A stretch of DNA of 53,232 nt from an uncultured Pelagibacteraceae bacterium (GTDB lineage Bacteria > Pseudomonadota > Alphaproteobacteria > Pelagibacterales > Pelagibacteraceae). The position numbers and the translations under genes are program-made. The notes below the pieces were generated by a model. It was not told the DNA's origin, made no database searches, and worked only from the letters and a program-made list of their open reading frames with translations. Numbering within the stretch: the first letter of the stretch is position 1; every line of letters starts with the position of its first letter. Below, one piece after another: positions 5,288-21,637 of this stretch. The stretch lies in the NCBI GenBank assembly GCA_902580135.1, contig CACHJL010000004.1, forward strand, positions 1 to 53,232, given 5' to 3'.

Positions 5288-6241
5288 ATGAGAAAAATAA
5301 TATCTCTTTTATCTGCTTTAATTATTTCAGTATTTTCGTTTGCTGGAATAGCTAATTCAGCAGATAGCAAGAAACCTATCGTTATCCCAACACATAATTG
5401 GTCAAGCCAAATTGTAATGGCTTATGTAATTGGTGGAATTATGGAAAGCATGGGAAACAATGTAAAATATGTAAACGCTGACTCTCAAGCAGTTTATGAA
5501 TCAATCCGTATTGGTGATGTAACTATATCACATGAAGTTTGGGAATCTGCATTTGGTAAATCATTTACAACAGCTTTAGACAAAGGTGGTTTGCTTGACT
5601 GGGGTGATCATGAAGCAAGAACTCTTGAGGATATGGGATATCCAAATTGGGTTGCTGAAAAAGGATTGTGCCCAGGTCTGCCAGACTGGACAGCTTTAAA
5701 AAATCCAGACTGTGCAAAAAACTTTACAACACCTGACTCTCCAGATGGAAAAGGAAGAATGTTGGAAGGTCCGCAAACTTGGCATGGTGATTTAATTCCT
5801 CAAAGAGTTGATGCATTAGGCTTAGGAGACCTTTGGTGGGTTAAATTTGCTGGAAGTGCAGATGCGCTTTGGGCAGAGTTAGCAGCAGCTAAAAAAGAAG
5901 GAAGAGGAACTATCATATTTAACTGGACACCAAACTTTACTGATGGTGCTGGTTTTACATTTATAGACTTCCCTCCATACACAGCTGGTTGTAGACCAGA
6001 AGATGGTGGAGATGGAAAATGTGGTTCTCCAGATGGTTATTTGAAAAAAGCAGTTAACGCTGATTTTCCAAAAACTCATCCAAAAGCAGCTGCAATGTTC
6101 AAAAAAATGTCATTCTCTACAAGTCAAATTGGTGCAATGGCAGCTTTAGTTGACGTTGACAAAATGACTCATGAAGATGCAGCTAAAAAGTGGTTAGCAG
6201 ACAATAAGAGCGTGTGGGAAGAATTTACACACGATCATTAA
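5288..6241 (+). CDS. tmoX: Periplasmic substrate-binding protein, glycine betaine/TMAO type (TmoX-like)
   Basis: Signal peptide; OpuAC-like fold sequence with THNWSSQIVMAYVIGGIMESMG and a Cys-flanked Gly/Asp loop CRPEDGGDGKCGSPDG; strong SD (aaggaaagggga); next to Tdm- and Tmm-like genes. Confidence 0.75.
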   Translation: MRKIISLLSALIISVFSFAGIANSADSKKPIVIPTHNWSSQIVMAYVIGGIMESMGNNVKYVNADSQAVYESIRIGDVTISHEVWESAFGKSFTTALDKGGLLDWGDHEARTLEDMGYPNWVAEKGLCPGLPDWTALKNPDCAKNFTTPDSPDGKGRMLEGPQTWHGDLIPQRVDALGLGDLWWVKFAGSADALWAELAAAKKEGRGTIIFNWTPNFTDGAGFTFIDFPPYTAGCRPEDGGDGKCGSPDGYLKKAVNADFPKTHPKAAAMFKKMSFSTSQIGAMAALVDVDKMTHEDAAKKWLADNKSVWEEFTHDH

Positions 6242-6265
6242 GGTCTTAAGGAAAAGAAACTTATA

Positions 6266-6301
6266 AATCTCTCCCAACAATGTTGGGGGAGATTTTTTTT
6301 T
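6266..6301 (+). terminator. Rho-independent terminator after the tmoX-like gene
   Basis: aatctctcccaaca / tgttgggggagatt inverted repeat (one G-T wobble) followed by a T8-9 run. Confidence 0.9.
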
Positions 6302-6335
6302 GAATTTTTAATTCAGTGATTTAAAATATACACAA

Positions 6336-6797
6336 ATGATCAAATTTTTTTTTTATATATTTCTAAGCTTCCTATTTTTTAATATATCATTAGCAAAAGA
6401 TGTAGATATACAAGAGAATATTGATTTAAGTTTTAAATGTGATTTAGAAAAAAAAATACTTAAGAATTCTGAATATAATTACAAAACTTTTCTAGCTAAA
6501 GATATAGATGATAAAGATTTAAATAAATTTGATATTAAGGCAAAAAAACCAGACACACTTTTTATTAACGGATTATCTTTATTTCTGTCAGATAGTAAAA
6601 AACTAAATGTTAAAGTAGTAAATAAAGATGTAGTTTTATTCAAAGCAAGTGATAAAAAAAAGAATTACTCAGAGTCAGCAATTATAAATAGAAAATCAGG
6701 CGAATTAGTTCATGAAATTACAAGAAATATAAAAAGTGAAAATTCAGAAAAAGATATTTTTTTTTATTCATGCAGCAAAAGAAAGAAAAATGTGTGA
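6336..6797 (+). CDS. Hypothetical secreted protein
   Basis: 153 aa ORF with N-terminal hydrophobic signal-like segment MIKFFFYIFLSFLFFNISLAKD; Lys-rich; no family recognised. Confidence 0.55.
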   Translation: MIKFFFYIFLSFLFFNISLAKDVDIQENIDLSFKCDLEKKILKNSEYNYKTFLAKDIDDKDLNKFDIKAKKPDTLFINGLSLFLSDSKKLNVKVVNKDVVLFKASDKKKNYSESAIINRKSGELVHEITRNIKSENSEKDIFFYSCSKRKKNV

Positions 6798-6831
6798 TTT
6801 TTTTTTAATTAAATATGTGTAAAATAATATT

Positions 6832-7209
6832 ATGAAAAATTTAATTATTTGTGCAATTTTTAGTTTTTTTATTACATCTGAAGTTTTAGCTCGTAGCACA
6901 GGATGCAAAGAAGGAAATTGCGAAAATGGTTATGGGTTATGGGTATACACTGACAAAACAACTTACGAAGGATATTGGGTTGGTACAAAAAAACATGGCC
7001 AAGGAACAGAAACCTGGCCTAATGGATATATATATAAAGGTGAATTCGAGAATAGTGTTTGGAGCGGCCAAGGTACTTTATATTTTCCAAATGGTGCAAC
7101 GTATGTAGGAGAATGGGCCAATGGATTTATGAACGGACAAGGAACTTTTACCTGGTCTGATGGTAAAGAAAAAACAGGCACTTGGATAAATGGGAAATTA
7201 CAAGAATAA
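6832..7209 (+). CDS. Secreted MORN-repeat protein
   Basis: Signal peptide then about four MORN-type units: YEGYWVGTKKHGQGTETWPNGYIYKGEFENSVWSGQGTLYFPNGATYVGEWANGFMNGQGTFTW. Confidence 0.85.
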   Translation: MKNLIICAIFSFFITSEVLARSTGCKEGNCENGYGLWVYTDKTTYEGYWVGTKKHGQGTETWPNGYIYKGEFENSVWSGQGTLYFPNGATYVGEWANGFMNGQGTFTWSDGKEKTGTWINGKLQE

Positions 7210-17379: not shown

Positions 17380-17892
17380 ATGTTTTACGATTTGGAAAAT
17401 AAAAAACCAAAAAACTCTGGCGAAAATTGGGTAGCACCTAATGCTACAGTTATTGGCGATGTTACTTTGGAAAAAAATACAAGTATTTGGTTTAATGCGA
17501 CATTAAGAGGAGACATAGAAAATATACATATAGGAGAAGGATCAAATGTACAGGATGGTAGTGTTCTACATACTGACCCAGGGTACCCTTTAAAGGTTGG
17601 ACGAAATGTTACTATCGGACATTTAGTTATGCTTCATGGATGCACCATAGGAGATAATAGTTTAATTGGAATTGGAGCTGTTATTCTTAACAATACAAAA
17701 ATCGGAAAGAATTGCATCATCGGAGCAAAAGCCTTAATAACTGAAAATAAAGATATTCCAGATAACTCTCTAGTTGTAGGATCCCCTGGTAAAGTTATTA
17801 GAAAACTTACAGAAGATGAGATTGCAGCTGTTCATAAAAATGCAGTTCGTTACCAAGAAAACTGGAAAAAATACTCAAAATCTTTAAAATAA
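17380..17892 (+). CDS. Gamma-carbonic anhydrase family protein (left-handed beta helix)
   Basis: Hexapeptide repeats; NVQDGSVLHTD, GHLVMLHGCTIGDNSLIGIGAVI. Confidence 0.9.
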   Translation: MFYDLENKKPKNSGENWVAPNATVIGDVTLEKNTSIWFNATLRGDIENIHIGEGSNVQDGSVLHTDPGYPLKVGRNVTIGHLVMLHGCTIGDNSLIGIGAVILNNTKIGKNCIIGAKALITENKDIPDNSLVVGSPGKVIRKLTEDEIAAVHKNAVRYQENWKKYSKSLK

Positions 17893-17896
17893 AAAA

Positions 17897-18895
17897 ATGA
17901 AAAAAGTTATACTAACATTTTCATTTTTAACTATTTTAATTTCAAACGTCTATGCTGACAAATGTTATGATAGCGATACAACACCAGTTATTTTAGATAG
18001 CGATAAAAAACCTGGTAGATTTTTTGAAGATCAGCCAGATGTTAACGATGATTTTCAAATTCATATTGTTTATACCTTATTAAAAGACTCTAAAGATAAA
18101 GAAGGGGATATCAACGGAAAGTTGGAAAAATGGATTGAAACTGCAGATAAATGGATTTTAAAAACTACAGCAAAAGCAAACAAGGAATCAAATTTTAATA
18201 ATGGAGAAGGTCAGAAGTTAAAATGGGATAGACGTAAAGACGGAAAGTTAGATATTACATTTCTTAGATTAAACAGAACTAAGAAAGACATGAAAAAGTC
18301 TAAGTGGGGTAGTTGTGGAAATGTATTTGGAAGATCTATAGCTAATAATGGCATGAACAATCCTAAGAAAATTTATTTTAACTTTGGAGATTATACTCAT
18401 AAAGATTGGCCATTTTCTGGTGGGTTTCCAATATTTAGTGTATTTTCTAAACATCAAAAAAAATGGCCACTTAATAATAAAGAGGTCGGATATTTTATAT
18501 TGCACGAGGTATTGCATGCTATGGGAGGAATTTTTACATGTTCACCAAATTTTTTTGAAGGACATAACACAAAAAATAATAAAAGCAGTGGTGATATGAT
18601 GTCAAGACATGTTGGTGAAGGAGGTAGAAAGCTAGATCCAAAAAATGATGATTATTGGGGGCACAAAAATAAAACTTGCCCAGACATGCAAGACAGCGTT
18701 TACTTTACACCTACATCAGACACTCCTTTTGATCCTTTTGAAGTTACTTGCTTGCCAAAGGATAAATGGAAATTTACCAAACATGATTACCAAAATATTG
18801 AAGATAGAAGAGGAAAAGGTGGACAGTGTTTTTACGCTCGAGGAGATGTTAATGTACCTTGGAAAAATGAACTTGGTATATTTGAAAGAAATTAA
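17897..18895 (+). CDS. Secreted HExxH-motif protein, paralog 1 (putative zinc metallopeptidase-like)
   Basis: Signal peptide; HEVLHAMGG at 18503-18529; shares KPGRFFEDQPDV.DD.QIH, DINGK.E, RKDGKLD.TF.RL and YFTPTSDTPFDPFEVTC with the next ORF. Confidence 0.75.
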   Translation: MKKVILTFSFLTILISNVYADKCYDSDTTPVILDSDKKPGRFFEDQPDVNDDFQIHIVYTLLKDSKDKEGDINGKLEKWIETADKWILKTTAKANKESNFNNGEGQKLKWDRRKDGKLDITFLRLNRTKKDMKKSKWGSCGNVFGRSIANNGMNNPKKIYFNFGDYTHKDWPFSGGFPIFSVFSKHQKKWPLNNKEVGYFILHEVLHAMGGIFTCSPNFFEGHNTKNNKSSGDMMSRHVGEGGRKLDPKNDDYWGHKNKTCPDMQDSVYFTPTSDTPFDPFEVTCLPKDKWKFTKHDYQNIEDRRGKGGQCFYARGDVNVPWKNELGIFERN

Positions 18896-19834
18896 ATGAA
18901 AAAAATATTATTAGCATTACTAATTAGTTTATTTAGCACATCTCTATTTGCTTCAGATGAAAAACCAGGTAGGTTTTTTGAAGATCAACCAGATGTTACA
19001 GATGATTATCAAATTCATTTTATTTATATGTTAGCTGCTGATGGTAAAGACCGTGAGTATGATATAAATGGTAAAATAGAAAAATATGCCGAACAAATGA
19101 ATAAACTTCATGAAAAGCATAGTAAAAAAGTTAAAGGTTCTTCAGGAGCTAAAAAATATAAATTTGATTATCGAAAAGATGGAAAATTAGATGTTACTTT
19201 TATTCGTTTAGATAAAAAACGTAAAAAACTTAATAAACATATAAATAATAATTACAGAGGATGGTTGTGGTTAAATGGATTTAATAATCCAAAAAAACAT
19301 TATTTTACATTTGCTGATGTCACAAGTCCAGATGGTGGTGAAGGTGGAGTTGGAATGGCATCAGTTTTTTTAAAAAGCAAATACAACAGAAAAGCAGTTA
19401 ACATGATCCGTACAGCTGTTCATGAATTACATCATGCAATGGGAGGAGGTTTTGCTTGTGTTCCGGGTATGAGTGGAAATGCTCATTGGTCAGGAAACAG
19501 ACAAGATACAATCCAGTTACAAATTTTTATGGGAAAAGCTTATGTTCATGATGAAGAAGGATGTCCAAAAGGAGAAGACTCGGCTTATCTAACACCAACT
19601 TCAAAAGATCCTTATGATCCATTTAAACTTATATGTTTAAATGAATGGGGTAAGTACAATCATCCAAAACTAGTGAAACTTAGAGAAAAACAAGCCAATG
19701 ATCTTAAAAAAGGTAAATGGAATTATAGAAGTGGAGGATCTGGATGTAAGTTTACTTATTGGGACAGAGATGGATCAGGTGGAATGAAAATATTTGATGA
19801 GCAAGAAGCAAAAAGAGCCTATGAACGTCATTAA
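18896..19834 (+). CDS. Secreted HExxH-motif protein, paralog 2 (putative zinc metallopeptidase-like)
   Basis: Signal peptide; HELHHAMGG (HExxH at 19421-19435); tandem paralog of the upstream ORF; stop/start directly abut (taaatg). Confidence 0.75.
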   Translation: MKKILLALLISLFSTSLFASDEKPGRFFEDQPDVTDDYQIHFIYMLAADGKDREYDINGKIEKYAEQMNKLHEKHSKKVKGSSGAKKYKFDYRKDGKLDVTFIRLDKKRKKLNKHINNNYRGWLWLNGFNNPKKHYFTFADVTSPDGGEGGVGMASVFLKSKYNRKAVNMIRTAVHELHHAMGGGFACVPGMSGNAHWSGNRQDTIQLQIFMGKAYVHDEEGCPKGEDSAYLTPTSKDPYDPFKLICLNEWGKYNHPKLVKLREKQANDLKKGKWNYRSGGSGCKFTYWDRDGSGGMKIFDEQEAKRAYERH

Positions 19835-19854
19835 ATAATTGGTTAAATTTACCA

Positions 19855-20433
19855 ATGAAAATATTTTTAGTTCTATCAATATTATTTTTCGTATCTTTTA
19901 CTAGCCTTGGCTATGGAGGTGAAAGATTTATTCCTCTTGAGTTATTTACAGGTGGAGAAATTAGAAGTGATACTGAAATAAAGTTTACAAAAGCAAATTT
20001 AGTTTTTGGAGACAAAAAAAGAAAAAAAATAATAGGTCCTGAAGACTGGGAACATCCTAATACAGGAGAAAAAATAAAAGTTTATAAAAGAACAAGAAAA
20101 GGTCAAAGTGGTTTAAAAACACAGTTATTCACCATAACAAATGATGGTCAATGTATTGGAAGAGTGTGGGATAGTAGACGTGGTGGACGAGTAATTAAAA
20201 ATGGGTGCAAGTTTCCCCTAGGTGTATGGAAAGAAGGTGAAACTAGAACTTTTTTAGGTTCATCAGGAGGAAAAACTAGAAAAATTGAACTAAAAATTTT
20301 GAAATTAGGAAAAAAACAAAAAGATAGCGTAAAGTTTAATTGGAAACTTTATGATGGATCTGGAAAATTAATGGATAATAACGATTATACTTTTTCACCA
20401 GGTAAAGCAATGTCTGGACTTAAAGATCATTAA
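19855..20433 (+). CDS. Hypothetical secreted protein
   Basis: 192 aa with signal-like N-terminus MKIFLVLSILFFVSFTSLGYG; 20 nt after the HExxH paralogs, same strand. Confidence 0.65.
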   Translation: MKIFLVLSILFFVSFTSLGYGGERFIPLELFTGGEIRSDTEIKFTKANLVFGDKKRKKIIGPEDWEHPNTGEKIKVYKRTRKGQSGLKTQLFTITNDGQCIGRVWDSRRGGRVIKNGCKFPLGVWKEGETRTFLGSSGGKTRKIELKILKLGKKQKDSVKFNWKLYDGSGKLMDNNDYTFSPGKAMSGLKDH

Positions 20434-20633
20434 TCAAATAGAAGGCTATTAATAGAATAAATTATTAATCCTAAAATAATTATAAAAAAAATACCAAAAG
20501 CAACTTGTTCTAGTGATTTTTTTTTAACTTTAGTTTTGCCCTGTTTGTATTTTCTTATTTGAATTATGCCAAATCTCATAGTGAATATACCTATAATTAT
20601 TAGAGATAAATAAAATATAAAACTATATAGCAT
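20430..20633 (-). CDS. Small membrane protein (2 TM)
   Basis: 67 aa with two hydrophobic segments; overlaps next gene in operon-like fashion. Confidence 0.5.
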   Translation of the reverse strand: MLYSFIFYLSLIIIGIFTMRFGIIQIRKYKQGKTKVKKKSLEQVAFGIFFIIILGLIIYSINSLLFD

Positions 20634-21027
20634 TTTTTAGAGATAAAACTTTAAAGGATACTTTAATTTTAGGAAATTGTTTTTTTAAATTCTTTTTTAA
20701 TTTATTAAATGAATTTTTATGTATCCTGTTTTCAATTGATGAGTTAAATTTCTTATTATTATTTGCTATTTTTGCTGCACCACAATCTTTATGATTAACA
20801 ACAATCAGTTTGTTTATTTTGTGCAATTTTATTGATGTTTCTAAATTTTCCCAAAATGTAGAGTGCCATTTTTTAAATTTTTCATTTGTTACGCCAATTG
20901 AACCTCCGGCAATAGTAAAGGCACTGAATTTTCCTGTAAGTTTTTTTTCTTTTAAATATTTATGCACTGGTTTTTGGAATCTTGGATCCATGCAAGATAG
21001 GACCATTGCTTCATATTTTTTTGACAT
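20623..21027 (-). CDS. Beta-carbonic anhydrase-like protein, short
   Basis: SCMDPR (CxDxR) and HKDCGAA (HxxC) ligand motifs; AGGSIG. Confidence 0.7.
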   Translation of the reverse strand: MSKKYEAMVLSCMDPRFQKPVHKYLKEKKLTGKFSAFTIAGGSIGVTNEKFKKWHSTFWENLETSIKLHKINKLIVVNHKDCGAAKIANNNKKFNSSIENRIHKNSFNKLKKNLKKQFPKIKVSFKVLSLKNAI

Positions 21028-21031
21028 AACT

Positions 21032-21637
21032 TTATGGAACCAACCAACTTTCTTTATTATTTTCTATATCAAATCTAGCTCTTCTATGACCTTTTGCAGC
21101 TAAATAAAGCCATTCAATACTTTGAATTTTACACTGAATAACAGTAAAATTTTTATAACCTTCTTCACTTTGTTCCATTGAAAATTCGAAATTATCTAAT
21201 TCAGGTTTTAATCCAGATGTTGGAGTAGGAGACTCTGTACCAGGCCCATTATCAACTAAATAACATTTTCGACTAATGTGACCTGTTTTTTCCCAAGAAC
21301 TTTTAGTTACCTCATTGTTGTGATTAATAGTACATACTGCTTTTAATCTTACTTGGATTTTTTCTTCCTTATCGTAAAAAAGCATAGAAGCATTTTTATT
21401 ATTTTTTATTTTAGGAATTTTATCTGATCTTATATCGCTATGAAATTGTACTAGATTATTTGTTTGATCAGATTTTCTAAGAACTACTATTCTTCCATCA
21501 AAGTCTTTTTGATCTCCGCAAATAAATACAGGAATTCTAAATTGAGAACTTCTATTAGTCACAGCATCATCTAGCATTGACCAGATCTTTTTTTTGATCT
21601 CGATAAAATCCTCGTAGTAAGGAACAGTATCACTCAC
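21032..21637 (-). CDS. Pyridoxamine 5'-phosphate oxidase-like FMN-binding protein
   Basis: FDGRIVVLRKSDQTNNLVQFHSDIRSDKIPKIKNN....ASMLFYDKEEKIQVRLKA; C-terminal IEWLYLAAKGHRRARFD. Confidence 0.8.
   Translation of the reverse strand: MSDTVPYYEDFIEIKKKIWSMLDDAVTNRSSQFRIPVFICGDQKDFDGRIVVLRKSDQTNNLVQFHSDIRSDKIPKIKNNKNASMLFYDKEEKIQVRLKAVCTINHNNEVTKSSWEKTGHISRKCYLVDNGPGTESPTPTSGLKPELDNFEFSMEQSEEGYKNFTVIQCKIQSIEWLYLAAKGHRRARFDIENNKESWLVP

Follow-up and report, generated by a model that had tools for sequence, protein, structure and literature searches.

Genes at the locus

The window analysed here is the whole stretch of 53,232 nucleotides from an uncultured Pelagibacteraceae bacterium (contig G000:C4), whose genome comprises 1.09 Mb in 60 contigs. 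Three genes on the forward strand occupy positions 17897 to 20433: P0001 (17897-18895, 332 aa), P0002 (18896-19834, 312 aa) and P0003 (19855-20433, 192 aa). The ORF coordinates agree with a preliminary description of this DNA, in that P0001 and P0002 abut at a TAA/ATG junction and P0003 starts after a gap of 20 nt. All three N-termini look by eye like signal peptides of the Sec type (VYA/D, LFA/S and SLG-type), in keeping with the secretion proposed there.

P0001 starts 4 nt past the stop of the left-flank gene, which encodes a γ-carbonic-anhydrase-like protein (left-handed β-helix; 17380-17892, +). Within the genus, this gene was matched in 116 of 121 genomes, including 19/19 of the best ones; some of the matches are weak paralogs, and the gene appears to be near-universal there. 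The right flank is a pyridoxamine-5'-phosphate-oxidase-like gene (21032-21637, −), preceded by a β-carbonic-anhydrase-like ORF of 134 aa (20623-21027, −). A small membrane-protein-like ORF (20436-20634, −) lies between P0003 and the β-carbonic-anhydrase-like ORF. The window contains no tRNA, and no RNA family was found at the locus. Terminator-like sites show no excess at the locus, and promoter-like sites are no more common than in shuffled sequences (27 compared with 26.2), which makes read-through transcription likely.

P0001 and P0002 are predicted to be exported metzincin-like zinc peptidases, of HEVLH and HELHH type respectively. They were correctly recognized in the preliminary description as paralogs that share HExxHxxG, with Phe at position 11 in both, and are 38% identical over 288 columns in a pairwise alignment (E = 7e-56). 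A third member of the family is on a separate contig of the same genome (G000:C34). The putative zinc-binding and catalytic motif is at residues 203-207 of P0001 (18503-18517, +) and 176-180 of P0002 (19421-19435, +). The candidate third zinc ligand is His223 in P0001 (FEGH; 18563-18565, +) and His197 in P0002 (GNAH; 19484-19486, +), which follow the last His of the motif by 16 and 17 residues, as had been counted. An EF-hand-like sequence, DRDGSGGMKIFD, had also been noted at the end of P0002. This does not hold up, since close relatives read DRNGTGVMKLFN, DRGNSGVMKLFN or ARNYDGLIKIFN at this position, and the acidic ligands of a 12-residue calcium loop are not conserved (DRGNSGVMKLFN, ARNYDGLIKIFN).

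A variable site between convergent genes

Both flanking genes were found at 47 loci among the window and 79 other loci carrying the family, with between one and seven family ORFs between them (seven, fragments included, at L133). A second sample of loci was anchored on the left-flank gene, separately from the loci collected through the family. In three of these (L161, L175 and L176) the site is empty: the flanking genes are convergent, their stop codons overlap (TTTTAAGGAAC), and there is nothing between them. Elsewhere the site holds P0003 with no protease (L180, and L168 together with another gene), a single protease paralog (L169), the β-carbonic-anhydrase-like ORF also present in the window (L166 and L167) or, in further genomes, other genes. 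At L169, DNA resembling the small membrane-protein-like ORF of the window is found after the protease. Cassettes thus come and go at a hotspot flanked by two convergent stop codons, which has empty and filled states. The preliminary description had suggested a peptidase cassette, and the term stands in a wider sense than was first meant, as a variable insertion site that is empty or filled across genomes. No integrase was seen at the site.

The flexible genomic islands of SAR11 are known, and for many of their genes no function has been assigned (PMC7318151). The hotspot resembles them in its strain-variable content at a fixed position and in its many hypothetical proteins; it differs in being a small site between convergent stops, and no description of it or of the protease family was found in the literature searched.

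Several other features of these islands were noted. Apparently broken or frameshifted family copies occur at L015 (2298-3292) and at loci with internal stops in G740, G675, G622, G824 and G711, and are consistent with cassette gain and loss. Some of the same islands also hold an exported zincin-like family that is unrelated to the first and by eye resembles gluzincins (HEYFHxxQ...WLTEGGAxxxE), at L005 603-1472 (−), L007 2414-3280 (+), L098 4246-5115 and L100 8151-9098; the L007 copy has no Pfam match above the cut-off. Another exported protein family (KTIVVKANPEKGFNFPYLL) recurs at L093 (2679-3677) and L015 (3304-3657).

The third exported protein

P0003 matches no family in Pfam or NCBIfam. 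Its structural model is mostly β, at low confidence (pLDDT 53, pTM 0.46). Relatives close to proteases are about 78-94% identical (alignment A4). The preliminary description took P0003 to be an accessory protein or a substrate of the proteases. A functional trio of this kind, with P0003 as inhibitor, chaperone or substrate of P0001 and P0002, has a precedent in Listeria, where a phage-derived metzincin and a TIMP-like lipoprotein are regulated by a CI/Cro switch and act as a pair (PMC8235301). The window is similar in that secreted metzincin-like proteins lie beside a second secreted protein. In the closest P0003 clade, with identities of 77% or more, proteases are present in 23 of 31 genomes (Fisher p about 1e-9), often adjacent to P0003.

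Against this, most P0003 genes are found without proteases. Across all 66 genomes with P0003, proteases are present in 26, where 16 are expected, and no protease paralog was detected in the other 40. Conversely, only 18 of 80 clustered protease loci hold P0003. It also stands alone at the hotspot, as described above, and elsewhere, including within a branched-chain-type ABC transporter operon (L146 5152-5745, L147 5200-5793, L149 4978-5595 and L150 5154-5744). Here two permease-like genes lie on either side, with their ends abutting or overlapping, as if P0003 had been inserted without disturbing translation. Adjacency to the proteases may come simply from a shared insertion site. We therefore regard the case for an accessory or substrate as weak and a functional trio as improbable, and read P0003 as an independent mobile exported gene, from a separate single-gene family, that has no obligate link to the proteases.

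Distribution of the protease family

The protease family is present in 96 of 397 genomes sampled from the order Pelagibacterales, while a sample of 399 genomes from the phylum gave a match in the window's own genome only. A scan of the genomes of 84,980 species gave 181 relatives, from which 79 distinct loci were kept. All of these are from Pelagibacteraceae or Candidatus Pelagibacter except two, one from SUP05 and one from a Rhodospirillales single-cell genome. The SUP05 contig (L091) carries an intact member of 326 aa with 29.2% GC, compared to 35.5% elsewhere in the contig. In the Rhodospirillales contig (L124, about 5890-6890) the family gene has 29.7% GC and its flanks 49% and 45%; where the start would be expected, its open frame lacks an ATG. 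Horizontal transfer of the family to these two lineages is likely, with the proviso that single-cell assemblies, from which these sequences come, can be chimeric. No relatives occur in phage records or viral contigs, and matches to plasmids are at chance level, so that neither a phage origin nor plasmid carriage is indicated.

P0001 and P0002 have no family match in Pfam or NCBIfam. The weak matches to Thioredoxin_8, RAMA and FlgD_ig are far below cut-off and were rejected as family identities. At the curated cut-offs, the Pfam families PF13582, PF13583 and PF13688 match neither P0001 nor P0002 nor any member of A3, an alignment of 28 diverse family members, and a search for PF13582 and PF13583 in the window's genome found nothing. 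Neither A1 nor A3 matched any sequence in the PDB. A weak match to DUF4189 (E = 0.018) was seen in one A3 member. Some members have an extra N-terminal domain (C..YAYN..KxxKxC...C.LYAVN.KIVWKYD), for example at L007 (1069-1500), L014, L017 and L098 (2913-4217), among others.

Conservation of the active site

Of the 138 family members that reach 240 aa or more, 137 keep the HExxHxxG motif and a following Cys, and the sole exception is cut off by the end of a contig. Poor conservation of the HExxH residues, on which the proposal of a peptidase could have foundered, is thus not what we find. In all 137 there is a His no more than 28 residues past that Cys. The mean column identity of A3 is 32%, and its invariant residues include (in P0001 numbering) H203, E204, H207, G210, C215, H223 and C261, with D233 near-invariant (at least 90% conserved). 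The later His suggested as third ligand is therefore among the invariant positions; it lies 13 residues past the Gly in P0001, 14 in P0002 and more in some relatives. H256 (YxH..C) was also considered as third ligand and was rejected, because it is missing from some members (YNLKDPTCP, YGDVEKGCP) and H223 is invariant. A disulfide bond probably joins the two invariant Cys.

Predicted fold

An AlphaFold2 model made from A3 has a pLDDT of 80.3 and a pTM of 0.83. The order of elements is β54-62, helix 75-98, β120-125, helix 143-150, β158-164, β173-183 and helix 194-208. Metzincins have a backing helix, a four- or five-stranded sheet and an active-site helix (PMC11674741). The model has the twisted sheet and backing helix of the N-terminal subdomain of the metzincin clan, MA(M), and past the mixed sheet and the long helix 75-98 it places HEVLH on the helix 194-208, as expected of an active-site helix. 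The preliminary description had regarded a non-helical HExxH as evidence against a metallopeptidase; in this model it is helical.

In a Foldseek search of the PDB, all seven matches with E of 0.001 or less were to chains of metzincin fold, namely Amuc_1438, OgpA and ADAM22. They were followed by snake-venom enzymes, ADAMs, ADAMTS4, archaemetzincin and Bacteroides fragilis toxin. TM-scores against known metzincins, at 0.21-0.35 on the query, are low and the rmsd is nearly 6 Å or more, so the match is evidence for a fold class and not for close homology. The Akkermansia O-glycopeptidases Amuc_1438 and OgpA are the top matches (E from 3.6e-4 to 2.8e-3), at only 10-18% identity over the alignment and a TM-score of about 0.3. 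The adamalysins or reprolysins (M12B; ADAMs and snake venom metalloproteinases) are also among the best fold matches and likewise carry HExxHxxG on a helix, but they have the third His at +3 past the Gly and a canonical Met-turn, and the SAR11 family has no direct Pfam match to them.

The strict metzincin motif is HExxHxxG/NxxH/D, in which the third ligand is a His or Asp three residues past the Gly (PMC11674741). Both window paralogs have Phe at this position, which departs equally from the aspzincin form HExxHxxGxxD. A Met-turn-like D-[IMLV]-[ML] sequence past the third His is present in 56 of the 137 members, including P0001 (GDMM) and not P0002. A displaced third His is not without parallel: in the metzincin leishmanolysin (M8), an insertion of about 62 residues separates it from HExxHxxG. 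Leishmanolysin is however absent from the 50 fold matches listed, and no sequence relation to it was found.

A bridge in sequence is provided by an actinobacterial protein. A search with the motif HELMHNLGGVQ..GWHC.DEYD.MCY, which we take to be conserved in actinobacteria, found a protein of Embleya sp. NBC_00888 (NZ_CP108785.1; L156 1499-3673) that matches Pfam PF13582 (Reprolysin_3) with E = 4.7e-4, just under the cut-off. Alignment of A3 with this domain using hhalign gave E = 2.3e-5 and a probability of 76% over 175 collinear columns, which is a bridge of one sequence. It pairs HEVLHAMGG with HELGHNLGA, EGH with AGH (and so H223 of P0001 with the His of AGH) and GDMM with WDVM. The score of 42.1 compares to at most 21.7 for a reversed and 40 shuffled copies; the best of 59 unrelated proteins scored 33.7, 30.0 and 27.8, over 16-17 columns only, and these short alignments are consistent with matching signal peptides. 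The collinear columns take in the first strand, a GFN..K.Y strand, HExxHxxGxV, a displaced GH and then D-x-M. The Embleya protein differs in being large, with fibronectin III and ricin-type lectin among its several domains, and in having a canonical-looking Met-turn (WDVM); its identity to the SAR11 profile is about 19%, and it lacks the N-terminal PGRFFEDQPD motif of the SAR11 family. Its position as outgroup in the tree is unreliable, with a very long branch.

The preliminary description called this an uncharacterized family. At the level of sequence (Pfam, NCBIfam and PDB sequences) this is correct; fold and profile comparison nonetheless tie it to the metzincins. We read the family as metzincin-like but divergent, with its third His displaced to judge by model and alignment, and file it under no named family.

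Ancestry and selection

The tree contains several well-separated subfamilies, and P0001 and P0002 fall in different well-supported clades, implying that they are old paralogs and not the result of a recent tandem duplication. Six pairs of protease orthologs have dS from 0.24 to 1.16 and dN from 0.017 to 0.122, giving dN/dS of about 0.05-0.12 (about 0.07-0.12 for the P0002 type), and a seventh, closer pair has dN/dS of 0.04. The protease family is under purifying selection. Comparison of the window with G023 (L002), a close relative, gives a dS of 1.16 for P0001, 0.24 for P0002, 0.19 for P0003 and 0.52 for the flanking gene. Such unequal values for adjacent genes suggest that single cassettes are replaced in mosaic fashion by recombination.

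Discussion

The near-complete conservation of the active-site residues and their placement on a predicted helix support the proposal of an exported metallopeptidase pair, with putative activity. We conclude, with a probability of about 0.72, that P0001 and P0002 belong to a real, functional family of exported metzincin-like peptidases, as the alignments and the model suggest. They would be Sec-exported zinc-dependent endopeptidases with a metzincin-like catalytic domain, either periplasmic or released. On the active-site helix, the two His of HExxH would bind zinc and the Glu would activate water. The third ligand would be a His moved from +3 past the Gly to the later position, carried on a longer loop that may be braced by the conserved Cys pair. 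The two proteins would belong to different members of a set of several old subfamilies. SAR11 strains would exchange these as cassettes that lack promoters, at a single intergenic position where two genes converge, with transcription probably coming from the upstream gene. Their role can only be guessed at: it may be strain-specific cleavage of environmental or surface proteins, with a specificity that differs between paralogs. The fuller proposal, that these proteins make up a metzincin family of their own, marked by the displaced third His and forming an exchangeable set of exported paralogs in the SAR11 flexible genome, is tentative, and we would put it well short of even odds.

The fold alone is no proof of catalysis, because the top matches include ADAM22, whose metzincin fold is non-catalytic. 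At least one of the paralogs might thus be a decoy or binding protein that has lost its activity, like the catalytically dead domain of animal ADAM22. P0002 would be the likelier candidate, since it shares with 80 other members the lack of a recognizable Met-turn. A dead active site is expected to drift, but full-length P0002-type members all keep HExxH and the third His, and their dN/dS is low; we consider loss of catalysis to be unlikely.

A zincin outside the metzincins is a poorer prospect still. The strict metzincin motif fails, and the conservation of D233 might suggest an aspzincin-like enzyme using this residue. H223 is however invariant, D233 aligns with the Asp that precedes the Met of the Embleya Met-turn, and the best fold matches are metzincins. 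A gluzincin is disfavoured because no downstream Glu is conserved among the invariant or near-invariant columns of A3.

That these are selfish or neutral passenger cassettes, persisting through recombination in an intergenic site where they neither harm nor benefit the host, would fit their patchy presence, the empty sites, the broken copies, the spread to unrelated taxa and the lack of any integrase or tRNA seen at the site, but is very improbable given the low dN/dS in all seven pairs and the conserved active site.

A metatranscriptome from the Red Sea assigned some expression of extracellular peptidases to Pelagibacter; these are MEROPS families, and need not include the family described here (PMC5069720). 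That a streamlined ocean bacterium should combine a displaced putative third ligand with a cassette hotspot is moderately surprising. In the surface ocean no heterotrophs are more abundant than SAR11 bacteria, which are commonly portrayed as specialists in the uptake of dissolved small molecules; to our knowledge they are not known for secreted proteases. A widespread and selected family of exported, putative zinc peptidases, apparently moving horizontally and unseen by Pfam and NCBIfam, points to a capacity for proteolysis that is overlooked in annotation. The presence of empty and filled states at one chromosomal site amounts to a small natural experiment across strains. If the fuller proposal is correct, streamlined SAR11 cells would be able to process surface or environmental proteins in a strain-specific way, for example for nutrition or against phage or competitors.
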